From the NCBI GenBank assembly GCA_022984795.1, contig JALIHJ010000028.1, positions 1 through 64,000 on the forward strand: a DNA stretch of 64,000 nt, in the 5' to 3' direction. The notes below the pieces were generated by a model. The model ran no database searches and was not told where the DNA came from. It was given only the letters and a program-made list of their open reading frames with translations. Position 1 is the stretch's first letter. Every line of letters begins with the position of its first letter. Source of the DNA: Fabrea salina. Its lineage: Eukaryota > Ciliophora > Heterotrichea > Heterotrichida > Fabreidae. Of the stretch, positions 1 to 62,830 are shown piece after piece. A program made the translations under genes and the position numbers.

Positions 1-1178
1 AACACCCTAACACCCTAACACCTTTAACACCCTAACACCCTAACACCTAACACCCTAACACCCTAACACCCAACACCCCAACACCCTAACACCCCTAACA
101 CCCTAACACCCCTAACACCCTAACACCCTAACACCCTAACACCCTAACACCCTAACACCCTAACACCCTAACACCCTAACACCCTCAACACCCTAACACC
201 CTAACACCCCAACACCCTAACACCCTACACCCTAACACACCCTAACACCTCCCTAACACACCCTAACACACCCTAACACCCTAACACCCTAATTTCAACA
301 CCCTAACACCCTAACACCCTAACACCCTAACACCCTAACACCCTAACACCCAACACCCTAACACCCTAACACCCCAACACCCTAACACCCTAACACCCCT
401 AACACCCTAACACCCTAACACCCTAACACCCTAACACCCTAACACCCTAACACCCTAACACCTAACACCCTAACACCCTAACACCCACCCTAACACCTCA
501 ACACCCTAACACCCAACACTCCTAAATGACTCCTAACACCCTAACACCCTAACACCCTAACACCCTAACACCCTAACACCCTAACACCCTAACACCCTAA
601 CACCCTAACACCCTAACACCCTAACACCCTAACACCCTAACACCCTAACACCCTAACACCCTAACACACCCTAACACCCTAACACCCTAACACCCTAACA
701 CCCTAACACCCTAACACCCTAACACCCTACCACCCTAACACCCTAACACCCTAACACCCTAACACCCTAACACCCTAACACCCTAACACCCTCAACACCC
801 TAACACCCTCTAACACCCAACACCCTAACACCCTAAACAATTCAACACCCCAACACCCTAACACCCTAACACCCTAACACCCTAACACCCTAACACCCTA
901 ACACCCTCAACACCCTAACACCCTAACACCCTAACACCCTAACACCCTAACACCCTAACACCCCAACACCCTAACACCCTACCACCCTAACACCCTAACA
1001 CCCCTAACACCCTAACACCCTAACACCCCAACACCCTAACACCCTAACACCCCAACACCCTAACACCCTAACACCCTAACACCCTGACTTAATAACACCC
1101 TAACACCCTAACACCCTAACACCCTAACACTCCTAACACCCTAACACCCTAACACCCCAACACCCCACACCTCTAACA
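1..1178. repeat. Telomeric repeat array (CCCTAACA)n
   Basis: Tandem copies of the 8-mer CCCTAACA (G-strand TGTTAGGG) fill the first 1.2 kb, C-rich strand leading inwards, as at a left chromosome end. This is the unit reported for heterotrich ciliates. The array is not uniform: CACCCCAACA, CACCCTCAACA, CCTAACACACC and short foreign words (ATTTCAACA near 292, AAATGACTCC near 525, AAACAATTC near 834, TGACTTAATA near 1085) interrupt it. True variation and long-read base-calling error are both possible sources of this noise. Confidence 0.97.
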
Positions 1179-4125: not shown

Positions 4126-5147
4126 GCCTAACACCCTAACACCCCAACACCCTAACACCCTAACACCCTAACACCCTAACACCCTAACACCCTAACACCC
4201 AATAACACCCAACACCCTAACACCCTAACACCCCAACACCCTAACACCCTAACACCCTAACACCCTAACACCCCAACACCCTAACACCCCAACACCCTAA
4301 CACCCCAACACCCCCTAACACCCTAACACCTATCAACTGCACACCCTAACACCCTAACAATTCCAACACCCTAACACCCTAACACCCTAACACCCTAACA
4401 CCCCAACACCTCCAACACCCTAAACACCCTAACACCCTAACACCCTAACACCCCAACACCCTAACACCCTAACACCCTAACACCTCTAACACCCTAACAC
4501 CCTAACACCCTAACACCCTAACACCCTAAACACCCTAACACCCTAACACCCTAAACACCCCAACACCCTAACACCCTAACACCCTAACACCCCAACACCC
4601 TAACACCCTAACACCCTAACACCCTAACACCCTAACACCCTAACACCCTAACACCCTAACACCCTAACACCCTAACACCCTAACACCCTAACACCCTAAC
4701 ACCCTAACACCCCTAACACCCTAACACCTCAACACCCTAACACCCAACACCTCAACACCCTAACACCCTAACACCCTAACACCCTAACACCTCAACACCC
4801 TCTAACACCCCAACATCTTAATGTCACTCCTAACACCCTAACACCCTAACACCCTAACACCCTAACACCCTAACACCCTAACACCCTAACACCCTAACAA
4901 TTCCCAACACCCTAACACCCTAACACCCTAACACCCTAACACCCTAACACCCTAACACCCTAACACCCTAACACCCTAACACCCTAACAATTCCCAACAC
5001 CCTAACACCCTAACACCCTAACACCCCAACACCCTAGCACCCTAACACCCTAACACCCTAACACCAACACCCTAACACCCTCTAACACCATCACTCCAAC
5101 ACCCTAACACCCTAACACCCTAACACCCCCAACACCCTAACACCCTA
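4126..5147. repeat. Interstitial telomeric repeat array (CCCTAACA)n
   Basis: A second array of about 1 kb of the same CCCTAACA unit in the same orientation as the terminal one, 3 kb inside the end. It has the same noise, including AACAATTCC(C)AACACC at three places (near 4347, 4896, 4986) and a TTAATGTCACTCC patch near 4817. It begins after GGATAAG and ends at CCCTACAG. Possible causes are a true interstitial array, an older chromosome end onto which DNA was added, or an assembly join of two alternative telomere-addition forms. Confidence 0.95.
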
Positions 5148-5614: not shown

Positions 5615-6956
5615 TTAAATTAAGTTAACTGACCGTACATTATGAGTATGGCCTTTTAGTTCTTGAGTCTGTTCACCTGTAGAGAGGTCCCAAACTCTAA
5701 CTGAGTAGTCTGGATAGCCACCTCCAGACACCAAGTACTTGTCATCACTTGATAGCTTGACTGAAAGTACCCCTCCAGTGTGTCCTCTGAGTACTTGAGT
5801 AGTTTCTCCGGAAGTGAGACTCCACACTCTGATGGTTTTGTCATAACTTCCTGAGACTACAAACTGATCGTCACTTGAAATAGCAACTGAGTAGACTTCA
5901 CCACCATGTCCTTTCAGCACTCTAATCAGGTCTCCAGAAGTAAGACTCCACACTCTAACAGTGCAGTCCCATACTCCCGGAGACAATGTATTGGTCACTC
6001 TTCGAAATGGCCACTGAGTAGACACAATCACTATGGCCTTGAAGGACTCTAATCACTTGTCCAGTAGCTAGACTCCACACTCTGAGTGTAGTGTCATCAC
6101 TACCAGAGACAATGAATTGGTCCTTGGTAGAAATGGCCACTGACCTAACCCAATGACTATGGCCATTGAGTACCTGAGTGGTTAGTCCAGAAGCTAGACT
6201 CCACACTCTAAGTGTATTGTCTCTACTCCCAGACACAACCCACTCGCCATCACTAGAAATGGCCACAGACAATACTCCACTACTATGTCCCCGGAGTACT
6301 TGGGTTACTTGTGCAGTAGCTAGACTCCACACTCGAACGGTAGTATCATCACTAGCAGACACTAGTATCCCTTTCTTCAGAGACATAGCAACTGACCAAA
6401 CGCATGCAGTATGGCCTGTAAGCACTCTAGCTTGGCCATCTTCCCAAATCCTTATGGTCTTATCAACACTACCCGATACAACCACAGGCTTTCTAGAGAG
6501 TACTTGGGGTAGTTGGTCTTTAGTCTCTAGTTGTTGGTGGAGAGTTGTTTCTTGGGACTCAGCAACTTGGTTTTCTAGGGCTTGGAGTTGGTTGTTGAAG
6601 CCCAGTTGGTTGATTAGTTGCTCGAAAGTGTCTTTGGATCTGACCTGGTTGACTCGTTGGATGGTTGAAGCAATGTTGGATTGGGAGCCAAGTAGGTCGT
6701 TCTTGAGTTGTTTGAGTAGAGCAAGTTGCTCAGAAGTCACTCTCTCAACTTCTGAGACAATGAGAGTGCTTAGTTGGATGACTTCTTTTTTCTGGCGGGA
6801 AATCATCCTCAGCACTTCATTCACTTGGTCACTTTCAGTCAGAGGGCTAGCAGTGTGGCCTTGAGTAACATGACTGGCAAGCATATGCTCACACAACAAC
6901 TCTCCACAGCTACACTTGGAAATAGCTTGGCACTTCGAAGGACAGTTGGCTTGCAT
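5615..6956 (-). CDS. Zinc-motif, coiled-coil, seven-bladed WD40 protein (WD40 copy 1, one frame break)
   Basis: The start ATG at 6956 follows TTATA. The N-terminus MQANCPSKCQAISKCSCG then CEH is a Cys/His cluster that looks like a small zinc-binding fold. Residues of about 45-150 form a heptad-rich coiled coil, then WD40 blades follow. The first frame runs to 5955 and covers four and a half blades (SGSVDKTIRIW, SASDDTTVRVW, SGSRDNTLRVW, SGSDDTTLRVW, DQYIVSGS). The rest lies in a +1 frame (WDCTVRVW, SGSYDKTIRVW, YPDYSVRVW) and ends at a natural stop after NVRSVNLI. Joined, this gives exactly seven blades, so the single extra base near 5975 is either recent or a sequencing error. WD40 propellers are protein-binding platforms; the partner is unknown. 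Paralogues lie at 7829-9698 and 57406-58752. Confidence 0.8.
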
Positions 6957-7828: not shown

Positions 7829-9698
7829 TTAATATATTTTGAAAGAATTAGGGGGATCTATTAGCCTGATGGAGTGAACTGAATTAGTATGACGTTCTAG
7901 AACTGCAACTTGTTCTCCAGTAGCTAGCTTCCGAACCTTGATGTTTCCACGCTCATCTCCAGACACTAAGAACTTTCTCCTCTTTGATATTCTTACTGAC
8001 TTGATAGCTGCTGTGTGACTCATCTCAACTCCAACTTGACTCTTGGTTTCAGTGCTCCAAATCTTAATACGCCCATCCTTGCCGCCAGAAACTATGAAGG
8101 CTCCAAACTTTTCAGGAATGTCCACTGAAAGCACAGGTCCAGCATGACCTCTAAACACATGAATTTGTTCTTCAGTTGCGTAGTTCCACAGCCTAACAGT
8201 TTCATCCTCACTTGCAGAAACCAATAATTTTTCATTTGAAGCAAGAGCCAAGGAACAAACAGTAGAGGTATGGCCTTGCAGAACTGCTTCTTTTCCAAGC
8301 CAAAACCTGATTGTGCTATCCTTGCTGCCTGAGAAAACAAACTGTTCTTTTTTCGAAAGAAGCACTGCAGAAACACTGTCAGTGTGCCCTCTATACACCA
8401 TATACTGCTCTTCACTACCAGAATCCCACAACCTAACGGTTCTGTCCTGGCCTCCGGAAGCCACCACTAGGTCTGACTTAGGCACGGACAAACACAAAAC
8501 AGGACCGTCGTGGCTGCCGAAAGTTCTAAGTAGGTTCCCACTAACAACATCCCAAACCCTAATGCTGCCGTCGGAGTTTCCAGTAATAGCAGAATGGTTG
8601 TTAAACATGCACATTGACTCAATTTTAGAAGAAGATTCTTGCATAATTACAGTTGGTATAGCGTTCTCCCAAACTCTAACAGTGTTGTCTTCGGCACTTG
8701 AAACAATGACAGGCATGTCTTCTTGAACGTCTTCTTGGTTGAATGGAGAGATTCCAGAAGGAACGCTGCTGGCAGAGGGTTCCTGAACAACGTCATACTC
8801 ACTTTGAGTTCTTGAGTACTCGGTAGTATTTTGCTGGGTTAATTGTGCGCAGGATGAATCTTCACTTGAAGCAGAAGAACTACTAGAAGAACTAGCAATG
8901 AAAGGAGGCCGTGGAATGCAGATCTTCCGACTTGCAGGACCACTTTCAAGACCACCGGGTTTCTTTACCTGGCTCTTTTTGTCGTCTGAGCTTGAATCCG
9001 AAATTTCTTGCTTTTTGAATCCAAATGGACCCTTAGCCTTGGGTTTCTTTATCTGCTTCTTCTTGTCGTCTGAGCTTGAATCCGAAATTTCTTGCTTTTT
9101 GAATCCAAATGGACCCTTAGCCTTGGGATTTTTTCATTCCAAATGGACCTTTAATTTGTTGAACAAGCTCAACTGTTGGAACAGAGTTCTTTCCACTTGA
9201 AGAACTAGAAGAATCAAGAGTACGAGGAGGGACAACTTCTGGAAAGGAGTTATTTTGAGGACCCAGAGAGCCTTTCTGAGCTGGAACAATTTCTTCTCCG
9301 AGGTCGGTATCTTGAATGGACTGCTTGAATTCTGCCACCTGGCTCTTGAGGGAACTCTTGAGTGAATTTAGTTCTTGGTTGAATTTGTCACGGTCAGCTT
9401 CGGTAGGTCTGGAGTGCAACAAGAACTTGACAAGCCTTTCTTCTAAATCTCTGAGTCCAGTTAGTTGGTGCAAACTCAACTTTTCAACGCCACTGATCAA
9501 AGACTCACACAACTTCAAAACAGTTCCCTTCTGACGGGAAGTTTCAGCAAGAACTTGGTTTAAGTCAGTTACCTCGCGTGGCAAAGGGTCGATAGAGTGA
9601 CCTTGTTCAAGGCGAGTTGGTATTTTGTGAGAGCAAAGCAACTCCCCACAACGACACTTGGACATAAAAGGGCAGACCTGGGAACAAGTAGTTTGCAT
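7829..9698 (-). CDS. Zinc-motif, coiled-coil, Ser/Lys-repeat, WD40 protein (WD40 copy 2, one frame break)
   Basis: I choose the ATG at 9698 (MQTTCSQVCPFMSKCRCGEL) because it follows TATCCACTAATA, a motif shared with copy 3. The order is a Cys/His cluster (residues 5-30), a coiled coil, then a low-complexity linker with two units of FGFKKQEISDSSSDDKKK, a Ser-rich stretch, and WD40 blades (EDNTVRVW, NSDGSIRVW, GQDRTVRLW, SKDSTIRFW, SEDETVRLW, GKDGRIKIW). One base too many after KGPFGMKKS (near 9130) ends the first frame; after it the frame is open from about 9128 to the stop at 7829. It is more similar to copy 3 than to copy 1. Probably a cytosolic scaffold; partner unknown. Confidence 0.8.
8985..9145 (-). 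repeat. Minisatellite coding FKKQEISDSSSDDKKK units
   Basis: About two and a half copies of a roughly 75-bp unit within WD40 copy 2, coding KGPFGFKKQEISDSSSDDKK. The DNA closely matches the repeat of the Kelch gene at 16410-19110 (shared stretches such as TTTGGATTCAAAAAGCA). The frame break of this gene falls in the first, partial copy. Confidence 0.85.
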
Positions 9699-9710
9699 TA
9701 TTAGTGGATA
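9697..9710 (-). promoter_or_regulatory. Start-proximal motif TATCCACTAATAAT of WD40 copy 2
   Basis: Read on the minus strand, TATCCACTAATAAT runs directly into the ATG at 9698. The same 14 bases stand one base before the ATG of WD40 copy 3 (57391-57404), although the DNA further upstream differs. It may be a promoter or initiator kept between paralogues, or simply inherited flank. Confidence 0.45.
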
Positions 9711-10035
9711 GTAAATGGACAGATTTAAACAAGACAATGTAATTAGCGAGTATAAGTAGACTAATTAACTTTACTTAAGCACATGGAAGTTTATTCCTTT
9801 GAGAGGTTCAGAGTGTGCAGAGAATATTCGCCTAACAAGGAAGCAGTTCTGCCCAGACTTTCAAGTGTACTTGAGTTCGAGAAAATAAACAGCACAAAAA
9901 CACGTCAAGGATTTGAGTCAATGATTGTCTTTAACGTGCCAAAGAAACACTGATACAATCTTCTTTACAAGAGAAGCAGAAAAGCAACACTCAGAACTTA
10001 AACCCTGCTTATAAAACTAATAGTTAATTAGTGAA
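9711..10035. other. Spacer upstream of WD40 copy 2
   Basis: About 325 bp without a credible open frame. It separates WD40 copy 2 from the small coiled-coil gene copy 2, mirroring the arrangement at 6957-7354. Confidence 0.5.
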
Positions 10036-10248
10036 TTAGTTGATTCTTCTCAAGAGCTCCTCTAGTAATTTTGTATTGCTCTCGGTTGCTTGTCTGACTT
10101 CGTGTATCGCCCTTGCGTTCCTGTCAGTTGCCTTTGTGTTTCTGTCAGCTTCTTACTGACTTGTCTTCTATTTTCTTGGATGTCCTGGAAATGCCAACTA
10201 TTTCTCAGGAACAATTCCTTCGTGTACAGGTCCTCTCATCATATTCAT
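10036..10248 (-). pseudogene. Small coiled-coil gene, cassette copy 2, frame-broken
   Basis: On the minus strand the ATG at 10248 gives MNMMRGPVHEGIVPEK and then a stop. In other frames follow DIQENRRQVSKK and ADRNTKATDRNARAIHEV, then RQATESNTKLLEELLRRIN with a stop at 10036-10038. Start and end match the small coiled-coil gene at 7355-7622. A 16-nt GTGAGT...AAAAAG segment just upstream (about 10279-10294) could be an intron of a longer 5' part. Probably decayed; it is the second half of a duplicated subtelomeric cassette. Confidence 0.45.
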
Positions 10249-10391
10249 TTCAGATGGTGGCTCATTTGAGACTTCAGTCTTTTTGGAGACTCACCTTCTT
10301 TGGTCTGGTTTTTTAAATATTATGAACGATCTAACTAACTAAATAAGATACGTAATTCAAACGCGCAAGATCAGGAAGCACCTAGAATTGA

Positions 10392-10580
10392 TCAACAATG
10401 AGAAGAAAAGACAACTAACAAAGCAAAAACAACTTCTTCATAAGACCAGAAGACACTAATACTATTTGAACATAACCATTCAACCAGATTCAATGCAGAA
10501 CTGAATTCTAACTCGTTGCTCCAAATAGTTACTCCACTGACGACAGAACACAAAGTACTCCTTGGAATTTGATTCGCCAT
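10392..10580 (-). CDS. Possible 62-residue protein, hydrophobic C-terminus
   Basis: The ATG at 10580 opens 62 codons (MANQIPRSTLCSVVSG...) and ends at TGA. The last 20 residues are hydrophobic (VVFALLVVFSS). It would be divergent from the GTPase gene with 45 bp between starts, a normal spacing here. No family is recognised and a chance frame is as likely. Otherwise the stretch 10249-10620 holds only the promoter of the GTPase gene. Confidence 0.25.
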   Translation of the reverse strand: MANQIPRSTLCSVVSGVTIWSNELEFSSALNLVEWLCSNSISVFWSYEEVVFALLVVFSSHC

Positions 10581-10625
10581 TACGAGTTTAAGTTTTCGGG
10601 TAGGTTCTGAAAACTCAACAATGGA

Positions 10626-11981
10626 ATGATGAACTCAACCGAAGAAAGCGAGTCAAAATTCAAACAATCAGAACCCAGAACTGCTCGAGAAGACACAAGA
10701 GTAGCAGTAATAGGCAATGTGGATTCAGGGAAATCCACACTTGTAGGAGTGCTTACGAGAGGCGTAGTTGACGACGGAAGGGGCTCTGCTAGGAGACTAG
10801 TGTTTAACTTTTCACACGAAGAGGCCAACGGCAGAACTTCGAGCATTGGACAAGAAATCATGGGCTTCGACAGCGGAGGCTCGCAAGTCACTCCCGAACG
10901 CTTTACTGAAAACAAAAACAAAACTTGGTCTTACGTAGCAAACCACTCCCAGAAACTAGTGACTTTCCTCGACTTGTGCGGCCACGAAAGGTACTTGAAA
11001 ACAACAGTTTTCGGACTAGTAGGACTGATGCCCGACTACGCAATGATAGTGGTAGGAGCTAACATGGGAGTGACCAGAATGACGCGGGAACACATTGGCT
11101 TGGCTCTTTCCATGAAGATCCCCATGTTCTTTGTAGTCACCAAAGTAGACATTGCTCCAGACAACGTGTACAAAAAGACCCTAGAGACTCTCCAGAAAAT
11201 ACTCCGCAGCCCAGGAGCAGGGAACAGAATGCCTTTGCTGGTGGACAGCCAAAGCGAGTTCGAAGAAATGGCTGAAATGGTAGAAACCAAACTGTGCCCC
11301 ATCTTCAGAGTTTCGAACGTGACAAGTGAAGGACTGGAGGAACTGAAGAAGTTTGTGCACTGCTTGAAGGCAAGAACCCTGAACACAGGAGCTTTTGGGT
11401 CTGCAGAAGAGCCTGTGGAGTTTCTGATCGACGGAGTGTTTCTAGTGACTGGAGTAGGCGTGGTGGTTTCGGGAATAATGAAGGCAGGGACAGTGCACCT
11501 GAACCAAAGTCTCTGTTTGGGACCTGACAAAAGTGGGAACTACCGAACAGTGACTGTGAGGGGAATCCACATCAAACGGACCAACGCAGAAGAAGCACGG
11601 GCAGGGCAGTCTGCTTGCTTCAACATCCGTGCTGCCAACAAGAAAGAACAACTCAAGAAAAACCAGATCAAAAAGGGCATGGTGGTGGTGGACAGAAGTC
11701 TGACTCCTGAAACAGCTTGGGAGTTCGAAGCTAAGGTTGTGATTCTGCACCACGGCACCACAATCAGGCCTAACTACCAACCCATCATCCACTGTGGAGT
11801 TGTAAGGCAAGCTGCAAGGGTAGTTTGGATGTCTTCAGGGCTCTTGCGCACAGGAGACGAAGGGACTCTAAGGTTCAGGTTCATGTTCCGTCCGGAACTC
11901 ATTCACAGAGGCATGAAGATCCTTTTCAGAGAAGGAAGAACCAAAGGACTAGGGGAAATATTCAAGGTTTACCCTATTTAA
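10626..11981 (+). CDS. GTPBP1/GTPBP2-type translational GTPase
   Basis: 451 residues. The P-loop GNVDSGKST is at residues 30-38; the G2 region includes GRTSSIGQE, G3 is DLCGHE, and G4 is TKVD in place of the usual NKxD. The order and the distinctive SSIGQEIMGFD stretch identify the GTPBP1/2 family, EF1A-like cytosolic GTPases linked in animals to ribosome stalling and mRNA decay. The C-terminal half holds the two beta-barrel domains (GVFLVTGVGVVVSGIM). It is shorter than the animal proteins (over 600 residues), lacking their N-terminal extension. I used the ATG at 10626; an ATG five bases earlier meets a stop at once. Convergent with the SINA-like gene, 14 bp away. Confidence 0.9.
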   Translation: MMNSTEESESKFKQSEPRTAREDTRVAVIGNVDSGKSTLVGVLTRGVVDDGRGSARRLVFNFSHEEANGRTSSIGQEIMGFDSGGSQVTPERFTENKNKTWSYVANHSQKLVTFLDLCGHERYLKTTVFGLVGLMPDYAMIVVGANMGVTRMTREHIGLALSMKIPMFFVVTKVDIAPDNVYKKTLETLQKILRSPGAGNRMPLLVDSQSEFEEMAEMVETKLCPIFRVSNVTSEGLEELKKFVHCLKARTLNTGAFGSAEEPVEFLIDGVFLVTGVGVVVSGIMKAGTVHLNQSLCLGPDKSGNYRTVTVRGIHIKRTNAEEARAGQSACFNIRAANKKEQLKKNQIKKGMVVVDRSLTPETAWEFEAKVVILHHGTTIRPNYQPIIHCGVVRQAARVVWMSSGLLRTGDEGTLRFRFMFRPELIHRGMKILFREGRTKGLGEIFKVYPI

Positions 11982-11995
11982 TGTAATTGGTTATG

Positions 11996-12784
11996 TTATA
12001 TTGTGTAGAACTCAGGGTTGGAGAAGTGCACTTTGATCCCAAAGGCTTTGCATTTTTGGATGGTTCCGTTGGTATCTGGTTGTTTGGTTTCGTAGGAGTA
12101 GTAGTTAAGTACTTGTTGGAAACTTAAGTTTAAACAAGGCCCAGTTTGCTCCTTGGAAAGAGTCTGTCCCACAAAGATTAGTTGGGGAATAGAGCCTCTT
12201 TCGCCTTCACTGTTATTATACAAAGCAATTTTTACATCTTCAGGTTTGTGTGTGAGTGAAATTACTTGTACGTATATGTTTGAGTTTTCTAGGTAGCAAT
12301 TCAAAGCATAAAACTTTTCTTGGTTCATGTCAATGCGTTTATAAAGCTTAAGAGGCCACTCTGTTGTGGAAGCAGAGGAGACACACAGCAGCGCAAAAAA
12401 AGACTGTGAGGCATAAAAAGGACCTTGGGCAGAATGACTCGAAATAAGATGGGAGGCGTGGTGTCTGGCAAGTCCATTCCAATTGCACTGGAAGCATTTA
12501 GCAGGGGGTTGGGAGTACTCGCAAATCTGGTGGTGCTGAAGGACTTCTGCTAGTCTACCTCTGAAGTTGCAACCATTGTGTTGGTTTGCACAAGTGATGC
12601 TTTCAGACTCTTTCGCAAGTTCTTCGAGTTCTGAGTTCCTTTGAGGACGTCTCATGTCCACTTGGCACTTGGGACACCAAGTCATTTGGCTTTTGCACTG
12701 GTTGCACAAAGGATGGCCTTCTAAGCACTGCCACACCGGAGGGACCATTACTTGTTCGCAAGCTTTGCATAAAAGTCTTTCCAT
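11996..12784 (-). CDS. SINA/SIAH-like RING E3 ubiquitin ligase
   Basis: 262 residues. An N-terminal RING-type finger (CKACEQV...CLEGHPLCNQC...CPKC, about residues 6-40) is followed by the SIAH-type zinc finger (ITCANQHNGCNFRG...HHQICEY...CFQCNWNG) and a C-terminal region in the place of the SINA substrate-binding domain. SIAH ligases pass ubiquitin from an E2 to bound substrates. The RING is C3HC4-like, with GHPLC at its centre. The start ATG at 12784 lies 25 bp from the end of the MFS gene behind it on the same strand. Confidence 0.85.
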   Translation of the reverse strand: MERLLCKACEQVMVPPVWQCLEGHPLCNQCKSQMTWCPKCQVDMRRPQRNSELEELAKESESITCANQHNGCNFRGRLAEVLQHHQICEYSQPPAKCFQCNWNGLARHHASHLISSHSAQGPFYASQSFFALLCVSSASTTEWPLKLYKRIDMNQEKFYALNCYLENSNIYVQVISLTHKPEDVKIALYNNSEGERGSIPQLIFVGQTLSKEQTGPCLNLSFQQVLNYYSYETKQPDTNGTIQKCKAFGIKVHFSNPEFYTI

Positions 12785-12809
12785 TAATCTAGCTTACAAA
12801 AGGTTTAAC

Positions 12810-14117
12810 TTATACAGTGTTTAAAAAGGGTTCTATTAGAACGTCGTTGTCTTGCTGGATTGAAAGTTTGCATTTTTCGTTCAAGCGCCATATCAATAGG
12901 ATGCTTATTAGTATAACGCAGGCCATTCCCATAAACACACACAAAAAGCCTAGTGACTTGGCCAGCATCTGTAGAAATATAGTGGTGACTGAAGCTAAAC
13001 TAATTCCAACAAAAACTAGTGGCCAGACTTGGGAACTGAGTGAACCAAAAACATGCCCAGTCTCGACAGCCATCGCGGGATAGTTGCAAGCTGTGGAAAA
13101 GAAAAGAGTAACGATAAGACCGCCGTACAAAGCTGGACTCTGCACGAAGTAATAGACTAAGCAACAAGCCACTAGTTGGTAGGTCATACTGAGGGTCATG
13201 ACCTTTTTGAAGGGGAAGTAATCAAGCAAAGAAGACCAAAGCCAGCCTCCCAGAGTCCCTGCGATGTTTGCTAAGCACCCTATGTAAGAAAGCAGGTGGT
13301 CGTCTGAAATGTGCATCAGTCCGAAGGATTTGTAGCAACCCCCTATAAAGTACCAAAATACGAAGCAGGTATACCCCACTCCGAAGAGTCCCCAAAAGTT
13401 TTCTGACTTCAGAATTTTGAGAGTTGGGATGGATTTGTTTGAAGCAGTCCCAATTTGTGTGTTTTTGGAGCGAGGCTGGATAAGGGCAACTCCGAGACAA
13501 GTCATCAAGGCAAAGATAGTTCCGACCCAAAGGAAAGCCAAGGGCACGTTCTGGTTAACTAAAGGCCCAAAATTGACTTCGTTGAAATGGCGAGTAGGCG
13601 GAACGTTATTTGGGTTTACTAAAAACGTGAATACAAGACTAAACACCATCGAGGCGCAACTGTAACCGCCAAGAATCAGGCCAGTGATTTTCCCCTTTGA
13701 GTTGGGAAAGTACTCCCAACAAGGCCACAAGCACGTGATAGACACCATGCCGCTTCCGATTCCCACTAAGAAAGCGTAACTCAAGACCAAGAAGTGGACG
13801 TTTTGGATAACCGAACAAAGCAGGTAACCTCCTGCCATCATGATTCCGCCTAAGAATAAGCAAGCTCTAATACCTAATAATCTCGAGATGTAGGGTGCCG
13901 ACATGACTCCAATGTTTTCTGCGAGGAAGGAAAACGGTTGGGCGTTGTACACAGAAGTAGATGTCACTTGGGGGTCGAAGCTTGAAAGGCTGGAGTACAC
14001 GTAGGGAAAAAGAGCTCCCCAGTTGTTCAAGTTGCCTGCTACACAGTTGAGAATCATGCCTCCTAGCACTGTCATGATTGCAGGTAGTCTTTCTCGAATT
14101 TTCTGGCTAGTATCCAT
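12810..14117 (-). CDS. Major facilitator superfamily transporter
   Basis: 435 residues with about 12 hydrophobic helices and a hydrophilic loop near the middle (QPRSKNTQIGTASNKS). The first helices (ILNCVAGNLNNWGALFPYVY) and the motif after helix 2 (SAPYISRLLGIR) are typical of the oxalate/formate-antiporter and monocarboxylate-like MFS branch that is abundant in protists. The substrate cannot be read from sequence. Probably plasma membrane or an internal membrane. The start at 14117 is preceded by an AT-rich leader; the 750-bp spacer upstream is the longest gap in this part of the window. Confidence 0.85.
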   Translation of the reverse strand: MDTSQKIRERLPAIMTVLGGMILNCVAGNLNNWGALFPYVYSSLSSFDPQVTSTSVYNAQPFSFLAENIGVMSAPYISRLLGIRACLFLGGIMMAGGYLLCSVIQNVHFLVLSYAFLVGIGSGMVSITCLWPCWEYFPNSKGKITGLILGGYSCASMVFSLVFTFLVNPNNVPPTRHFNEVNFGPLVNQNVPLAFLWVGTIFALMTCLGVALIQPRSKNTQIGTASNKSIPTLKILKSENFWGLFGVGYTCFVFWYFIGGCYKSFGLMHISDDHLLSYIGCLANIAGTLGGWLWSSLLDYFPFKKVMTLSMTYQLVACCLVYYFVQSPALYGGLIVTLFFSTACNYPAMAVETGHVFGSLSSQVWPLVFVGISLASVTTIFLQMLAKSLGFLCVFMGMACVILISILLIWRLNEKCKLSIQQDNDVLIEPFLNTV

Positions 14118-14869
14118 TTTATTTTTATTAGGTGTCAGAATAATATGCTATTTAAAATTTCGGGGTTTTTTCACCAGTCTTAGGTTTGCTGAGTTTCTGC
14201 TTAGGATAATAATTGCAACAGAAACACACTGAGTTAAGTTCAATTCGGAACTTTCTGCAACTAAAGGACTAATCTCTATGTGAACAGGAGAGGAACTACT
14301 TTAAAGCAATATCTACTGATAGATAGCAAGGTATAACGATACAGCAAACGTCCAATACTAAGAAACTTAAAATGAAAACAACGGAGAAGACCTAAGACAC
14401 TCAATAAAGTAGTGTCAGATACTGCTTTGAACGAGGAATCCTTATGGAGTATAGAGCCTTCAATGTTTAGGTAACTTAGGTCTATACGGTATATATTTTT
14501 CAGGGGCACTAAACCAAAGTACCAAGATTGACGCAAAGCATTAGGCAAGCCAGCTGAAAACTTTGTGAACTACGCAAACCAGCCCAGGGTGAATAACATA
14601 ATAATAATAAATTTGGAACTTTCCTTAGTTTTTAGAAGAACTCTAAGCTGCACAAGAACTAATTAATTTTCCAAAGCCCAGGCTTAGGACTTTGGTCCAA
14701 CAGTTTGAAATGAAAATATTCGTTATAGCTGCTCATCTTTACCACTGAAACAAAATTGACAGAGAGTCCCGAAAACCTTTTGAAGTACTTAGGTAAGCTT
14801 TAAGTAAACTATGCGTTTGAACTGAAAGCCCAAAGGGGATTTACGGCCAGTATGGCTTATAATAATTAA
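14118..14869. other. Long intergenic spacer between divergent genes
   Basis: 750 bp between the MFS gene (minus) and the Kelch gene (plus). Open frames in it lack an ATG. I saw no tRNA-like B box or other RNA gene by eye. It must hold both promoters; its length is unusual in a region where most divergent pairs share less than 60 bp. Confidence 0.55.
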
Positions 14870-17800
14870 ATGGGAAATTGCAGTTCCAAGAAAAGCACGA
14901 CCGTTAGCAATACTCAAGTGCAACAACACAAGCAACCAGAGTTCGTATGTCCGGAGCACTATTATCTGCATCGGGAAAAAAAGATCCTTTTGAAAGTCGA
15001 TAAGTCTGGTATCGAGAAATTCAAGTTCCAAAAAGACGTAAAAACCAGAAAAAAGTCAGCGGTAGGTATTATAGATGGGAGCTTTTACGTTGCAGGGGGA
15101 GAGGACAGTGCTTCTTGCCTGACCAAACAGTTTTTGAAAATAGACCCAGCCTCCAGAACCACAACCAAACTGAGTTCCCTGCCCGTTCCTACTAAGGGAG
15201 GAAACTTGCACAAGTACAACAACTGGATCTACTTAGTAGGCGCCAAGAACGACGACGCTGACGAGGAAAGTGCAGTGGCCAAGCAACCAGCCCCCCTTAT
15301 GCGGTACGACATCCGAAGTAACCGATGGCAGATCTTCAGTAGTTTCAAGCGAGAGCACACCAAAAACAAAGTCATGATGTTCATCAACCATTGCGTTACG
15401 GACAGACACAGAGAAGAACAAGAACAGGTTTCCAACGTCAAAGACTTTTCTTTGAGGGACTTGGTGTCTCCAGGTTCGTTCACCCTAGGGTCCAAAATCT
15501 ACCTCGTGGGTGGCTATCGTGTTAACTCAAAAGGCCAACTGAAGTGCACTAAAAGAATATACTCACTTGACATCTCCAACGACGAGGATATCAGGTTCGA
15601 GTGTGAAGAGCAACTTAGACTTCCGTTCAAAGTAGCCAAACCTCACTGTTTTGCAGGAACTGAAACTGTAATAGTGATGGGTGGAAAACTGGGCAAGTCC
15701 AAAAAATTCAACTACTGTGCATGCCAACTGCGTCCTAGAGACAACCAAACAGAGAAGCTCGTAAGGATGCTTGACCCTATTCCAGTTTCTGTGTCTGGAA
15801 ACTACCCTCCTATGAAAATTGACGACTACATTGCATTTTTCAGCTTCCCCAACATTCTACTGATCAATAAAAGCTCTAACTGGATCCAGTACTCTATAAA
15901 GGCAGAAAAGCACCAGCATTCTGCAGAAAGCGACACTCTGAGGTTCATTCCTGGACAAGAAACTAAACCTGAAGAAGTTCCACTTTCCTTAGCCACTAAG
16001 TACCCAAGGTCGCCTGAGAAGAAAACCCAAAACTACTCCAACGTCAAAGTAGATGTAGTTGAGGCCAAAGCCTCCAAAGACCACTCTTCTGACAGTTCGT
16101 CTTCTTCCAGTCAAAAAAAGTCCAAACAAAAGAACTTGCCTCCTGTGAAGAACTCCTCCCGGTTCAAGGATGAAGCTTCGAGTTCTGATGAAGAAAAACA
16201 AAAGTCCAGAAAGCCCCAAATAAAACCTCCTGAAACTCAAAAACAATTCCGGCCTTCTTTGCCTGTTAAAAAGAAGTCTAACAGTTCGTCTGACTCAAAA
16301 GAAGTTGAGATCAAAAAGTCCCAGCACAAAGCAGATCAAAAAGAAGCTGCCCCGGAAGTCAATATCAACTTTGCCATCACTAAAAAGCCTCCTACTGAGG
16401 ATGTTGAAACTAAAGGTAGACTTGGTTATAAGAAGCAGGAAAAGTCAGACTCAAGTTCAGATAATGAAAAGAAGCAGGTCGAGAAACCTCAAGCTAAGGG
16501 TGGATTTGGATTCAAAAAGCAGGAAAAGTCAGACTCAAGTTCAGATGACAAGAAGAAGCAACTCGAGAAACCCCAGCCTAAGGGTGGGTTTGAAGTGAAC
16601 AAACCACAGGCTAAAGGTGGATTTGGTTTCAAAAAGCAGGAAAAGTCAGACTCAAGTTCGGACGATAAAAAGAAGCAACTCGAGAAACCCCAGCCTAAGG
16701 GTGGATTTGAAGTGAACAAACCAAAGGCTAAAGGTGGATTTGGTTATAAGAAGGAAAAGTCAGACTCAAGTTCAGATGACAAGAAGAAGCAACTCGAGAA
16801 ACCCCAGCCTAAAGGTGGATTTGGATTCAAAAAGCAGGAAAAGTCAGACTCAAGTTCAGATGACAAGAAGAAGCAACTCGAGAAACCCCAGCCTAAAGGT
16901 GGATTTGGATTCAAAAAGCAGGAAAAGTCAGACTCAAGTTCAGATGACAAGAAGAAGCAACTCGAGAAACCCCAGGCTAAGGGTGGATTTGAGGTGAACA
17001 AACCACAGGCTAAAGGTGGATTTGGTTTCAAAAAGCAGAAAAAGTCAGACTCAAGTTCAGATGACAAGAAGAAGAAACCCCAGGCTAAGGGTGGATTTGA
17101 AGTGAACAAACCACAAGCTAAAGGTGGATTTGATTTCAAAAAGCAGGAAAAGTCAGACTCAAGTTCGGACGATAAGAAGAAGCAGTTCGAGAAGCCCCAG
17201 TCTAAGGGTGGATTTGAAGTGAACAAACCCCAAATGAAGTCTGGCTTTAATTTAAAGAAACAAGAAAAACCAGATTCAAGTTCAGAGGATGATAAACGAA
17301 AAGCACCAAAAAAGGAGGGCTTTAAGGTAAGTAAGCCTGAAGCTAAGGGTGGATTCGTATTGAACAAAGAAAAGTCAGACTCAAGTTCGGACGATAAGAA
17401 GAAGAAACCCCAGGCTAAGGGTGGATTTGAGGTGAACAAACCACAGGCTAAAGGTGGATTTGGTTTCAAAAAGCAGGAAAAGTCAGACTCAAGTTCGGAC
17501 GATAAGAAGAAGAAACCCCAGGCTAAGGGTGGATTTGAAGTGAACAAACCACAAGCTAAAGGTGGATTTGATTTCAAAAAGCAGGAAAAGTCAGACTCAA
17601 GTTCAGAGGATGATAAACGAAAAGCACCAAAAAAGGAGGGCTTTAAGGTAAGTAAGCCTGAAGCTAAGGGTGGATTCGTGTTGAACAAAGAAAAGTCAGA
17701 CTCAAGTTCGGATGACAAGAAGAAAGGGACATTCAGCATTAAAAAGAAATCTCCGGAGTTGAATGAACCTAAGAAACCACAAATTGAACTGAAGAAAAAG

Positions 17801-19753
17801 GCGTTTGCTGAAGACTCTTCATCAAACACTCCAGAAAAGAAAAACTTCCATGGAAAACCAATTGGAGAACCTCAGAAGAAAGAATTACCTAATGCCAGCA
17901 AAGAGGAAGGTAAATTCAAAAAGTCCGAGTTCAAAGCTAAAATCGAAAAGCAGGAAAAGTCAGACTCAAGTTCAGATGACAAGAAGAAGAAACCCCAGGC
18001 TAAGGGTGGATTTGAGGTGAACAAACCACAGGCTAAAGGTGGATTTGATTTCAAAAAGCAGGAAAAGTCAGACTCAAGTTCAGATGACAAGAAGAAGAAA
18101 CTCGAAAAGCCCCAGGCTAAGGGTGGATTTGAGGTGAACAAACCACAGGCTAAAGGTGGATTTGGTTTCAAAAAGCAGAAAAAGTCAGACTCAAGTTCAG
18201 ATGACAAGAAGAAGAAACCCCAGGCTAAGGGTGGATTTGAGGTGAACAAACCACAGGCTAAAGGTGGATTTGATTTCAAAAAGCAGGAAAAGTCAGACTC
18301 AAGTTCGGACGATAAGAAGAAGAAACCCCAGGCTAAGGGTGGATTTGAAGTGAACAAACCTCAAGCTAAAGGTGGATTTGATTTCAAAAAGCAGGAAAAG
18401 TCAGACTCAAGTTCAGATGACAAGAAGAAGCAGTTCGAGAAACCCCAGCCTAAGGGTGGATTTGAAGTGAACAAACCCCAAATGAAGTCTGGCTTTAATG
18501 TAAAGAAACAAGAAAAACCAGACTCAAGTTCAGAGGATGATAAAAATAAGCAGGTCGAGAAACCCCAGGCTAAGGGTGGATTTGGTTTCAATAAGAAGGA
18601 AAAACCAGACTCAAGTTCAGATGATAAGAAGAAGAAACCCCAGGCTAAGGGTGGATTTGAAGTGAACAAACCTCAAGCTAAAGGTGGATTTGATTTCAAA
18701 AAGCAGGAAAAGTCAGACTCAAGTTCGGACGATAAGAAGAAGCAGTTCAAGAAGCCCCAGCCTAAGGGTGGATTTTGGTTCAAAAAGCAAGAAAAGCCAG
18801 ACTTAAGTTCAGAGGACAAAAAAGCTGGAGAGAAGAAACAATTTAGTTTCGGTGCAAAGAAAGAGTCTCCAGGGTTGAATGAACCCAAGAAACCACAAAT
18901 TGAGGCAAAGAAAAAGGCATTTAAGGAAAGCTCTTCATCAGATTCATCAAACACTCCAGAAAAGAAAAAGTTTTACGGAAAGCCTGTAGGTTCCTATGAC
19001 CATGAAAATAAAGAAGAAGAGAAAAAAGCATTTGGGAAGCCCCACATAGAAGGCGAGTTAGGGTTCAAAAAGCAAAAGGAGTCAGACTCAAGCTCAGAAA
19101 ACAAGAAGTCTCCAGGAAAGAAAGAATTCAGTTATAGAGTGAAAAGAGACTCAAAGAAAGAAGAACTGAAGATTCCTGAGAAGCACGACTTGCACATTCC
19201 AGCAAGGAAAGTTTCTTCGAGTCAAGAAAAACAAGTGTTAGGGAAGCTAGAACACAAAGAGAGTTCAGAAGAAGAAAAGCACGACAAAAAGTCTCCTTAC
19301 AACTTCAAAAGCGAACATGCTCACATGGGAGAAGTAGACATTTCTGGCAAAGGAAGTATCCAGAGCTCTCCAAACAAGCCTGCTTCGGCCAAACTGCAAA
19401 GTGCCAAGAAGAAAACTGGGTTTTTGCACATAATAGGGTCTGCTTTGAAGAAAAGACTAGGGAGGGAGTCTTCTTCTTCGTCCTCAGAAAGTCCCAAAGC
19501 CCAAATGCAAATTGAATTCGAGAAACCCCAAAGACAAGCCAAAGCGAAGGAAAGTTCTTCAGAGTCCAGCGAAGAAGCAAAGGCAAAACCAAGGAAAGTC
19601 CAAGCTTTTTCACCTGAAGAAAAAGTAAAAACCCCTCCTTGGGCCCAAAAGCTCAAAGAAAAACAGTCCAAAAAGAAGTCCAAAGACGGAAGTTCTTCAA
19701 GCAGCGACGACAAAAAACGCAAGAAAAAAGAGTCGTCTTCAAGTTCATCTTAA
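14870..19753 (+). CDS. Giant N-myristoylated Kelch-like protein with SDSSSDDKKK repeat tail
   Basis: 1627 residues. The N-terminus MGNCSSKK is a strong myristoylation signal (Gly2) with a neighbouring Cys4 for palmitoylation. Residues of about 40-340 are Kelch-like (GSFYVAGGEDS, NWIYLVGA, GSKIYLVGGYRV, TVIVMGGK). From about residue 380 to the end the chain is disordered and very rich in Lys, Ser, Asp and Glu, with about 23 copies of a (F)KKQEKSDSSSDDKKK unit alternating with KPQAKGGFEVN. The S-D/E-rich units are ideal casein kinase 2 sites. Inference: a membrane-tethered propeller with a long, phosphorylatable, highly charged tail. The stop codon overlaps that of the convergent ENTH gene. Confidence 0.85.
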   Translation: MGNCSSKKSTTVSNTQVQQHKQPEFVCPEHYYLHREKKILLKVDKSGIEKFKFQKDVKTRKKSAVGIIDGSFYVAGGEDSASCLTKQFLKIDPASRTTTKLSSLPVPTKGGNLHKYNNWIYLVGAKNDDADEESAVAKQPAPLMRYDIRSNRWQIFSSFKREHTKNKVMMFINHCVTDRHREEQEQVSNVKDFSLRDLVSPGSFTLGSKIYLVGGYRVNSKGQLKCTKRIYSLDISNDEDIRFECEEQLRLPFKVAKPHCFAGTETVIVMGGKLGKSKKFNYCACQLRPRDNQTEKLVRMLDPIPVSVSGNYPPMKIDDYIAFFSFPNILLINKSSNWIQYSIKAEKHQHSAESDTLRFIPGQETKPEEVPLSLATKYPRSPEKKTQNYSNVKVDVVEAKASKDHSSDSSSSSSQKKSKQKNLPPVKNSSRFKDEASSSDEEKQKSRKPQIKPPETQKQFRPSLPVKKKSNSSSDSKEVEIKKSQHKADQKEAAPEVNINFAITKKPPTEDVETKGRLGYKKQEKSDSSSDNEKKQVEKPQAKGGFGFKKQEKSDSSSDDKKKQLEKPQPKGGFEVNKPQAKGGFGFKKQEKSDSSSDDKKKQLEKPQPKGGFEVNKPKAKGGFGYKKEKSDSSSDDKKKQLEKPQPKGGFGFKKQEKSDSSSDDKKKQLEKPQPKGGFGFKKQEKSDSSSDDKKKQLEKPQAKGGFEVNKPQAKGGFGFKKQKKSDSSSDDKKKKPQAKGGFEVNKPQAKGGFDFKKQEKSDSSSDDKKKQFEKPQSKGGFEVNKPQMKSGFNLKKQEKPDSSSEDDKRKAPKKEGFKVSKPEAKGGFVLNKEKSDSSSDDKKKKPQAKGGFEVNKPQAKGGFGFKKQEKSDSSSDDKKKKPQAKGGFEVNKPQAKGGFDFKKQEKSDSSSEDDKRKAPKKEGFKVSKPEAKGGFVLNKEKSDSSSDDKKKGTFSIKKKSPELNEPKKPQIELKKKAFAEDSSSNTPEKKNFHGKPIGEPQKKELPNASKEEGKFKKSEFKAKIEKQEKSDSSSDDKKKKPQAKGGFEVNKPQAKGGFDFKKQEKSDSSSDDKKKKLEKPQAKGGFEVNKPQAKGGFGFKKQKKSDSSSDDKKKKPQAKGGFEVNKPQAKGGFDFKKQEKSDSSSDDKKKKPQAKGGFEVNKPQAKGGFDFKKQEKSDSSSDDKKKQFEKPQPKGGFEVNKPQMKSGFNVKKQEKPDSSSEDDKNKQVEKPQAKGGFGFNKKEKPDSSSDDKKKKPQAKGGFEVNKPQAKGGFDFKKQEKSDSSSDDKKKQFKKPQPKGGFWFKKQEKPDLSSEDKKAGEKKQFSFGAKKESPGLNEPKKPQIEAKKKAFKESSSSDSSNTPEKKKFYGKPVGSYDHENKEEEKKAFGKPHIEGELGFKKQKESDSSSENKKSPGKKEFSYRVKRDSKKEELKIPEKHDLHIPARKVSSSQEKQVLGKLEHKESSEEEKHDKKSPYNFKSEHAHMGEVDISGKGSIQSSPNKPASAKLQSAKKKTGFLHIIGSALKKRLGRESSSSSSESPKAQMQIEFEKPQRQAKAKESSSESSEEAKAKPRKVQAFSPEEKVKTPPWAQKLKEKQSKKKSKDGSSSSSDDKKRKKKESSSSSS
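16410..19110 (+). repeat. Coding minisatellite of the Kelch gene (about 23 SDSSSDDKKK units)
   Basis: Two interleaved motifs repeat in frame, FGFKKQEKSDSSSDDKKKQ and KPQAKGGFEVN, in units of about 75-130 bp that are nearly identical in DNA. Local variants (EDDKRKAPKKEGFKVSKPE at about 17284 and 17604) occur twice, showing that larger blocks have been copied. The unit is shared with WD40 copy 2 (8985-9145). Confidence 0.95.
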
Positions 19754-57405: not shown

Positions 57406-58752
57406 ATGGAAGCTAACTGTTCTGAAACTTGCCCAGCTATCTCCCAATGCCAGTGTTGTGAGTCACTATGCACTCACAGGTATCAATTCGTCTTGAGCAA
57501 GACCACTCTATCAGCCCTTTGTCCCAAAAAGTTATTAACTTCAACCAAATCCTCAAAGAAGTTTCGCATTATAAGGAAAGTGTCCTCAAGTTACGCGAGT
57601 CTTTAACTAGCGTTGAAAAGTTTAGTTCAGATCAACCCAACTTGAAGACCTGAAAGGAAAAGCTTCCAAACTCTTGTCAGATTCCAAACCCACCAATGCT
57701 GACTATGAACAATTCAGCCAAGAGTTTAATTCACTCAAGACTTCCCTGAATACCCAGTTGGCAGAACTCAAGCAGTTCATTGAAGGCATCGATTTAGAAG
57801 AAAGTTCCTCTAAAACCAATGAAGCACCCAAAACTGACTCCTTATCTGAAATCAAAGCAATCGATTCTAAATTCAACAAAGAGGGTCCTCAAGAGAAACT
57901 CCCTGTGGTTGTTTCAAGTGGGTACGACAATACCGTCAAAGTTTGGAAGAACAACCAAAAAGCCTTGGTCATAGAAGACCACCACTCCAAAATTGAATCA
58001 ATGTGCATCTACAATCAAGATTCTGTGCTGACTGGGAACTCCGATGGCAGCATCAAACTTTGGAGCATTGAAATAGGGAATCTATTAAAGACTCTTGCAG
58101 TCCACAGTGGTCGTGTTTTGTGTGTGTCAAAGACCATCGATGACACTATAATGGTTTCTGCGAGCGAAGATGGCACAGTTAGGGGATGGGATGTTGATGA
58201 GGAAGAAGGAAACGCAGTATTGAAAGGCCATACTGATCATGCTTGCATAGTACTCTTTCCTAAAATGAGGATTTTGTGTTTTCTGGCAGCAAAGATACTA
58301 CAATCAGAATATGGGCTGAAGGAGAAAAAGTCCTTGAAGGTCACACTGGAACTGTCTACTCGTTAGCTGTGGCAAGGAAAGATAAGTTATTGGTTTCTGC
58401 AAGCGAAGACGAAACCATTAGGTTGTGGAACTACAACACTGGGGATCAAATCCATGTTTTTAGTGTGTCTGCTCTTTCCGTGGGCATTCTTAGAAAGTAT
58501 GCAACCTTCATACTGTCTGGTGGGAATGATGGGACTGTTAGAATTTGGGATAATCAAAAGAAGACCCAAGCTGGAATTCTGGGGACTCATGGAGACTCTG
58601 TTAAGTCAATAGCGCTTTCGAAAAAACAACAGCTCGTGTTTTCTGGAAGTAAAGATGGAACAATAAATGTCCAACGCTTGCCTGGCCCAGAGTTAGTTGC
58701 AAGGCTGGATGCTCATCCAGGTGGAGTTCACTCTATCATACTGATAGAATAA
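57406..58752 (+). pseudogene. Broken WD40 copy 3
   Basis: Same plan as WD40 copy 2: Cys/His cluster (MEANCSETCPAISQCQCC), coiled coil, then WD40 blades (YDNTVKVW, NSDGSIKLW, SEDGTVRGW, SKDTTIRIW, SEDETIRLW, GNDGTVRIW) and an end matching copy 2 (GGVHSIILIE). Three frame changes split it: after CTHR (near 57481), after SSDQP (near 57630) and after VLFPK (near 58262). Compared with copy 2 it also lacks the SDSSSDD linker repeat and part of one blade (HVFSVSALSVGIL). None of the breaks is a 15- or 16-nt intron. Probably a dead copy moved into the housekeeping block, unless the breaks are sequencing errors. Confidence 0.75.
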
Positions 58753-61888: not shown

Positions 61889-62830
61889 ATGCTAACTGAA
61901 GTTGGTCAAGCAGTTGAAAACATACTGAATTTCTTGCAGCCAAACGAAGTTATTAAACTGCAAAGAGTATCTAAACTCCACTCTAAACTCTTTGGTTGGT
62001 TTAAAAACAGCATCTTGCACAGCTTAAAACAAAAAATCAACTTAACTTGCGATACAACTACTGACCTAAAACACTTCAAAGAATCAGTAAAACACAGTGT
62101 ATTTGAAGCAAAGTTGTACGAGTCCAAGTATGCCTTTTGCATAGACAGAGACGAAGACTACTTCTTCTGCAGGTACTTTTTAGGGTCAGCTTTAAAAAAA
62201 GAAATCATCAGCGGACTAGATGTTTCTTTAAGCCCAGGTCCCCACTGCAAGCTGCCTGACGGAAGGTTTTTTGTTTTGGGCGAAAAGTCTTCTTACAAAG
62301 ACACCTACATTCTGGAGCCTTCTTCTCTGCAAGTCCAAAAAGTCAAAGGAGGCCCTATTGTCCAAGGCTATAGTTGTGTGTATTTTCGCGGGGAAATATT
62401 CATATTTGGAAGCTTAGTGGACAACTTCACAGAAGTCAGTTGTAACTACAAACTAGACTTAGAAAAGCAAGAGTGGAAGTCCATTGCAAGCTTGCCGCAG
62501 GTGTGCCAGGACATCACAGCTGTTTTGTTTGGAGGGTGGATTTATGTGACTGGCAAAGAAACTGATGCAGTTTGGAAGTACTCTTCTGAGTGCAACTCTT
62601 TCGAAGTAGTTTACAAAACAGCTAGAGGCAAGAAGGTCCTTTTTAGGAGCGCAAGTAGTCTTTACTTCATTTTTGAAGAAGAAGTTTTTGTACTTCAAGA
62701 CAAGCAGTTAAAGAAACTTTTAAGTTTACAGAACCAAATCCAGGCTAAGTACTTCAATTTTATCAGTTGTGAAGGAAAACTGTTTTACGAAAACAAAGGC
62801 TCTTTGGAGTGCTTTGAGAACTTAAAGTAA
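61889..62830 (+). CDS. F-box-like and Kelch-like protein
   Basis: 313 residues. The first 45 (VENILNFLQPNEVIKLQRVS, KLHSKLFGWFK) fit an F-box, the SKP1-binding helix bundle of SCF ubiquitin ligases. From about residue 100 come Kelch-like strands (DGRFFVLGEKSSYKDTYILE, YFRGEIFIFGSLVDNF, WKSIASLPQVCQ, GGWIYVTGKE). Probably a substrate receptor of an SCF ligase. Divergent from the PX gene with 54 bp between starts. Confidence 0.7.
   Translation: MLTEVGQAVENILNFLQPNEVIKLQRVSKLHSKLFGWFKNSILHSLKQKINLTCDTTTDLKHFKESVKHSVFEAKLYESKYAFCIDRDEDYFFCRYFLGSALKKEIISGLDVSLSPGPHCKLPDGRFFVLGEKSSYKDTYILEPSSLQVQKVKGGPIVQGYSCVYFRGEIFIFGSLVDNFTEVSCNYKLDLEKQEWKSIASLPQVCQDITAVLFGGWIYVTGKETDAVWKYSSECNSFEVVYKTARGKKVLFRSASSLYFIFEEEVFVLQDKQLKKLLSLQNQIQAKYFNFISCEGKLFYENKGSLECFENLK

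Follow-up and report, generated by a model that had tools for sequence, protein, structure and literature searches.

An old charged repeat unit shared by the tail of a Kelch-type protein and the linker of a WD40 gene in the ciliate Fabrea salina

Introduction

Coding repeats that are exchanged between genes have been described in ciliates. The account of the Tetrahymena LRR genes in PMC6564038 gives tandem arrays of a 90-bp exon that recombine ectopically, both inside a gene and from one gene to another; the youngest of these genes are found preferentially in pericentromeric and subtelomeric regions. Palindromic Amphipathic Repeat Coding Elements (PARCEL) are tandem coding units of 25 amino acids found in otherwise different proteins, and their spread is thought, according to PMC2996958, to have occurred by transfer and by shuffling inside genomes. 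For phosphorylatable charged segments, the closest described proteins are treacle and Nopp140, whose central repeats are presented in PMC9133508 as a long region of alternating CK2-phosphorylated acidic and basic blocks, and MARCKS, in which, according to PMC5964646, a myristoyl anchor is combined with a single short effector domain that PKC or ROCK phosphorylates.

Here we describe a 64-kb stretch of a Fabrea salina contig (64,000 nucleotides, hereafter the window) in which one repeat unit occurs both in the tail of a Kelch-type propeller gene and in the linker of one of three WD40 genes (Table 1). Our preferred reading, to which we give a probability of roughly 0.55, is that part of the Kelch array was copied long ago into the linker of WD40 copy 2, that it is probably untranslated there, and that in the Kelch protein the array forms a phosphorylatable charged tail.

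Table 1. Features of the window that bear on the shared repeat unit
Feature	Coordinates	Strand	Remarks
Telomere-type array 1	1-1178		8-bp repeat AACACCCT; 1.2 kb at window start
Telomere-type array 2	4127-5147		orientation as array 1; about 3 kb from array 1
WD40 copy 1	5615..6956	-	without module; two overlapping ORFs in different frames
WD40 copy 2	7829..9737	-	ORFs 9737-9117 and 8716-7829, in different frames
Linker unit W2, KGPFGFKKQEISDSSSDDKKSQVKKP	8957..9034	-	in WD40 copy 2, tandem with W1
Linker unit W1, KGPFGFKKQEISDSSSDDKKKQIKKPKA	9035..9118	-	in WD40 copy 2
34-bp short element adjoining W1	9119..9152	-	frame change falls here
Kelch gene	14870..19753	+	intact ORF, 1627 aa
Kelch-type propeller part, about aa 1-380	14870..16009	+	Pfam and PDB matches
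Kelch repeat tail	16412..19111	+	23 A units and interspersed B units
WD40 copy 3	57674..58752	+	without module; frame broken in the WD40 part
Second Kelch-like gene	61889..62830	+	Kelch_3, E 1.4e-04, 22.4 bits (cut-off 22); without module

Results and Discussion

Setting of the locus

Two telomere-type arrays lie near the start of the window. In the heterotrich ciliate Blepharisma the telomere repeat is described as a permutation of CCCTAACA (PMC9942806). The 2948 bp between the two arrays have no match elsewhere in the window at E 1e-5, and the inner array may represent a join made in assembly, an interstitial telomere or a site of alternative telomere addition. TGA serves as the stop in four of the 31 window ORFs examined, and therefore the genetic code looks standard, as has been reported for Stentor too (PMC9505925). 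Most of these 31 ORFs strongly prefer NAC over NAT codons for Asp, Asn, His and Tyr; the preference is weak in the WD40 copies, the Kelch tail and the ORF at 59289-60905.

A Kelch-type gene with a long repeat tail

Kelch motifs in the large ORF pass the curated Pfam cut-offs (Kelch_1, 5.4e-06 and 26.3 bits for a cut-off of 20.1; Kelch_6, 5.3e-06 and 26.7 bits for a cut-off of 25.3), and Kelch_KLHDC2_KLHL20_DRC7 was found at 5.7e-07, below its curated cut-off. The motifs lie at about residues 58-159 and, weakly, at residues 205-219, and the best PDB match by phmmer was Kelch-like protein 17 (E 3.3e-11, residues 59-157). The AlphaFold2 model of the Kelch part, built from the single sequence, had a mean pLDDT of 31.8, too low to inform on the fold. 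When relatives of the Kelch part were sought in viral contigs, two stretches fitted a pattern and neither was confirmed.

The ORF stays open across all its 1627 codons, the repeat tail included. Two kinds of unit make up the repeats: an A unit, KGGFGFKKQEKSDSSSDDKKK and variants, with 23 cores that fit [SP]D[SL]SS[DE].., and a B unit of 11 residues, KGGFEVNKPQA, of which 13 fit the pattern used and lie scattered among the A units. A sequence-only reading of this DNA had counted about 23 units in the Kelch tail, with further units in the linker of WD40 copy 2, and had proposed that the array was amplified. The 23 cores and the two tandem linker units agree with that count, and amplification is borne out by several identical units (pairs range from identical down to 52% alike) and by large overlapping self-matches at offsets of 84, 318, 399, 1116 and 1200 bp. 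Self-matches at several offsets point to growth by both single-unit and block duplications. The tail had no match among PDB sequences up to E 0.01.

From residue 381 onwards the tail comprises 1247 residues, including 314 Lys and 176 Ser, with a net charge of +126, and this lysine-rich segment is probably disordered. The CK2 substrate rule is S/T-x-x-D/E. Such sites number 65 in the tail, compared with 30.2 +/- 4.6 in 1000 shuffles (largest 45), and 47 of the 65 sit in the 23 cores. The cores hold 87 serines, and if all were phosphorylated, at -2 each, the calculated net charge would be about -48. The N-terminus of the protein, MGNCSSKK (14870-14893), was picked out by eye and presumably fits a signal for N-myristoylation/S-acylation, and the Kelch protein is probably lipid-anchored via MGNCSS. 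Most likely, we infer, the Kelch tail is a phosphorylation-controlled, membrane-bound charged tail: its serines would be phosphorylated by a CK2-type kinase, taking the charge from +126 to about -48, and the change of charge would switch the binding of the tail to membrane, cytoskeleton or partners. Treacle and Nopp140 are nucleolar proteins in which we know of no propeller, and the Kelch ORF gave no treacle/Nopp140-type match in Pfam.

Kinship of the WD40 and Kelch units

WD40 copy 2 consists of a Cys/His-rich N-terminus, a Ser-rich linker and a WD40 propeller (PF00400, 181.5 bits over five stretches, with several repeats above the Pfam cut-off). Its linker (8743-9282) exceeds the linker of copy 3 by about 475 bp, and it holds other Ser-rich runs besides W1 and W2.

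By blastn within the window, with dust off, the copy 2 linker and the Kelch tail gave a collinear match of 174 bp (79.3%, E 1e-39). Over 54 codons, 43 of the 54 residues and 129 of the 162 bases agree. Random back-translations of both proteins with window codon usage agreed at 111.3 +/- 4.5 of 162 positions, and none of 5000 reached 129; two other codon-usage settings likewise gave 0/5000. Both kinds of unit contain the block KGxFGFKKQE, which is not low complexity, the order of parts and the 84-bp period are the same over two units in both arrays, and the core serine codons fall in the same boxes. By these sequence comparisons, the WD40 linker units and the Kelch A units are homologous.

The DNA had been called near-identical. 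Mean identity of the two WD40 units to the 23 aligned Kelch units is in fact 61-83%, the best single pair (W1 and K02) reaches 86%, and dS is about 1.1. The distance had been given as 6 kb; the modules are 7.3 kb apart (9118 to 16412), in genes on opposite strands. At identical residues, one WD40 unit and K05 use the same codon in 15 of 22 cases, where 9.5 are expected, a value reached by 88 of 10,000 simulations with window codon usage and by 52 of 10,000 with WD40 usage. When W1 was free to take the best of 19 Kelch units, the observed maximum was reached in 525 and 622 of 10,000. This best-match test weakens the codon excess, and therefore protein likeness, order and period carry most of the case for homology, to which the DNA likeness adds moderate support.

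The 34-bp element shows 26 identities with the best Kelch B unit (33 bp) and 30 of 34 with a truncated A unit of the WD40 gene itself. In a tree of the 63-bp units (25 rows), the branch between W1/W2 and the others was weakly supported, and the tree does not give the direction of transfer because it is unrooted and has no outgroup.

State of the WD40 frames

In copy 2, the upstream ORF runs into a stop at 9117, where W1 has its left edge, and the first listed ORF after it that shares the frame of the module begins only at 8716, beyond the module. With the frame change just before them, W1 and W2 are therefore translated by neither ORF as assembled, and they are probably untranslated now. The idea that both propellers bear a CK2-like phosphorylatable tail thus survives for the Kelch protein, with its excess of sites, and fails for the WD40 units as assembled.

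Copy 2 could also be intact, the frame change being an assembly error or an intron, in which case both propellers would have a working phospho-tail; we regard this as possible but doubtful. The break is a single frame change beside a homopolymer run (seen by eye), pN of the module is low, and ten GT-AG segments of 43-79 nt, the shortest of 43 nt, would restore the frame. However, introns reported for Stentor are of 15 or 16 nt, as described in PMC9505925, and no GT-AG segment of either length restores the frame of copy 2, by which a tiny intron as the cause of the frame change was ruled out. The other two copies are broken too. Copy 3, the nearest to copy 2, has further indels upstream in its N-terminal part and is broken at more than one place. 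The 31 window ORFs are open, which also speaks against an intact copy 2, but the comparison is biased because these ORFs were chosen from an ORF list. The share of NAC in NAC+NAT points the same way. Five pieces of the three WD40 copies, all read in frame, have a share of 0.36-0.72 (a further copy 1 piece, with five stops in the frame read, was left out), and 23 of 32 other rows have at least 0.80 (the Kelch tail, at 0.62, is an exception); the low share fits decay or weak expression of the WD40 copies.

As seen by eye, the frame breaks of copies 1 and 3 adjoin homopolymer runs. GT-AG segments of 13-79 nt that would restore the frame number 35 in copy 1 and 16 in copy 3, and none of the 12 shortest of either set is of 15 or 16 nt.

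Carriers of the module

Five propeller genes, three WD40 and two Kelch-like, were found in the window. Of the 47 ORFs with 150 amino acids or more, the Pfam scan covered 42, the other five lying on the opposite strand of longer ORFs, and the piece 5615-6031 of WD40 copy 1 was left out. The module is present in two of the five genes; among the three WD40 copies it was found in the copy 2 linker alone. With three of the five lacking it, the suggestion that the module ties propeller proteins into one system is not supported in this window. Between the two carriers lie genes for an EF-Tu type GTPase, a Sina-type RING protein and an MFS-like transporter (the last just below the Pfam cut-off), and no unit was found in these three.

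The unit might still belong to a wider family of charged repeats dispersed among linkers in this genome, the Kelch and WD40 genes being chance samples and propellers not special. Our view is limited to 64 kb, such families exist in ciliates, as the ectopically recombining 90-bp exon arrays of the Tetrahymena LRR genes described in PMC6564038 indicate, and the far-diverged synonymous sites reported below would suit a long-standing family. Against this stands the lack of any other carrier in the window: with the copy 2 linker as query, blastn at E <0.1 matched only the linker itself and the Kelch tail, and tblastn with three unit queries gave only weak matches outside 16300-19300 and the WD40 units, the best of them (E 0.006) in the C-terminus of the Kelch protein itself. 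We consider such a family unlikely.

Stretches fitting the unit pattern numbered 20 in viral contigs and 142 in GTDB genomes, and none passed tblastn. Plasmids and phages likewise gave no confirmed relative, although low-complexity masking may hide weak ones in these collections. In the open PMC literature no report of the unit was seen among the matches listed. A wider proposal sees the SDSSSDD unit as a transferable phospho-linker under selection, moved by recombination across many scaffold proteins of the ciliate, with one kinase addressing the whole set. This appears improbable; if true, it would give each protein the same kinase-controlled charged segment.

Age and constraint of the shared unit

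Over the 54 codons, the Nei-Gojobori method gave 17.0 differences at 29.5 synonymous sites and 16.0 at 132.5 nonsynonymous sites (dS 1.10, dN 0.13), where dS is rough because W1/W2 and K05/K06 are near copies and the effective sample is one 28-codon unit. For a single unit compared with K05, pS was 0.52 (8 differences at 15.3 sites) and pN 0.12. The far-diverged synonymous sites indicate that the sharing event is old, and a recent transfer was ruled out on this ground. Between copies 2 and 3, the 114 codons of the WD40 part on which paralog-based dating rests gave pS 0.63 and pN 0.31. As pS is similar, the age of the sharing is of the order of the split of copies 2 and 3, with a wide error given how few sites there are. 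The module has been preserved better than the neighbouring propeller (pN 0.12 vs 0.31).

Between W1 and K05, the core SDSSSDD shows four synonymous changes and not one nonsynonymous change; under independent, neutral substitution with kappa 4, the probability of this pattern is about 0.005. Among 19 Kelch units compared in pairs (K04, K10, K13 and K14, shifted or shorter, were left out), pooled pN/pS was 0.19 for the core, 0.23 for the flank and 0.24 for the KKK stretch; these near-equal values indicate that the whole Kelch unit is constrained alike, not the core in particular. As judged from these substitution patterns, the unit is old and under constraint at the protein level.

The claim that a repeat moved between these genes is thus upheld as to shared ancestry, and not as to a recent or active move, which the synonymous divergence contradicts. 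An active mobile coding module, that is, a recombinogenic minisatellite inserting in frame into propeller genes and linking them functionally, might be suggested by its presence in one of three WD40 paralogs and by an array duplicated in many ways, but the divergence is old, most of the propeller genes lack the module and the units of WD40 copy 2 are out of frame, so that we hold it to be very unlikely. Pure convergence of two CK2-type acidic-serine/lysine tracts grown alike is hardly credible. In its favour, the shared protein alone explains much of the DNA likeness and the synonymous excess is modest; against it stand the KGxFGFKKQE block, the common order, period and serine codon boxes, and an identity that no back-translation reached.

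A possible origin of the shared unit

Under our preferred reading of an old copy from the Kelch array, the A unit would be native to the Kelch-propeller gene, whose tail would have expanded by repeated unequal exchange. Long ago, ectopic recombination or gene conversion would have placed a copy of two A units, perhaps with a B unit, in the linker of a single WD40 paralog, where W1 and W2 may later have been duplicated or homogenised. In the Kelch gene, purifying selection holds the tail in frame. The direction from Kelch to WD40 and the mechanism of recombination are what we infer from the two arrays, and a third, unseen gene could have been the donor to both the Kelch gene and WD40 copy 2.

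Repeat tails that can be copied would quickly hand a protein a ready-made regulatory segment. The locus is a clear ciliate case in which the protein sequence of a phosphorylatable core was kept and its synonymous DNA drifted, and it illustrates that a striking repeat common to two genes can go back to an old event, one of the copies being probably dead.

Comparison with known systems

On the side of function, the Kelch tail resembles the central repeats of treacle and Nopp140, as these are described in PMC9133508, in alternating acidic serine cores with basic blocks, CK2 phosphorylation being predicted here. With MARCKS, in the description of PMC5964646, the Kelch protein has in common a possible N-myristoyl anchor and a lysine-rich segment with phosphorylatable serines; MARCKS has one effector domain, whereas the Kelch protein has 23 acidic-directed clusters and a propeller.

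On the side of origin, PARCEL, as portrayed in PMC2996958, also consist of a tandem coding unit in unrelated proteins, here in two genes within 64 kb. PARCEL are amphipathic, palindromic and spread across taxa, whereas our unit is hydrophilic, with no bacterial, viral, phage or plasmid relative confirmed. The Tetrahymena LRR genes, following PMC6564038, are likewise from a ciliate, and their coding unit, of similar length (90 bp, compared with 84 bp here), is also arrayed in tandem in varying copy number. In that family of more than 1000 genes every unit forms an exon of its own, whereas the array described here is one uninterrupted reading frame of charged Ser/Asp/Lys units, with two unrelated carriers known within the 64-kb window. 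With these precedents in the Tetrahymena LRR genes and PARCEL, the locus is another example of coding-repeat exchange of an already known type.
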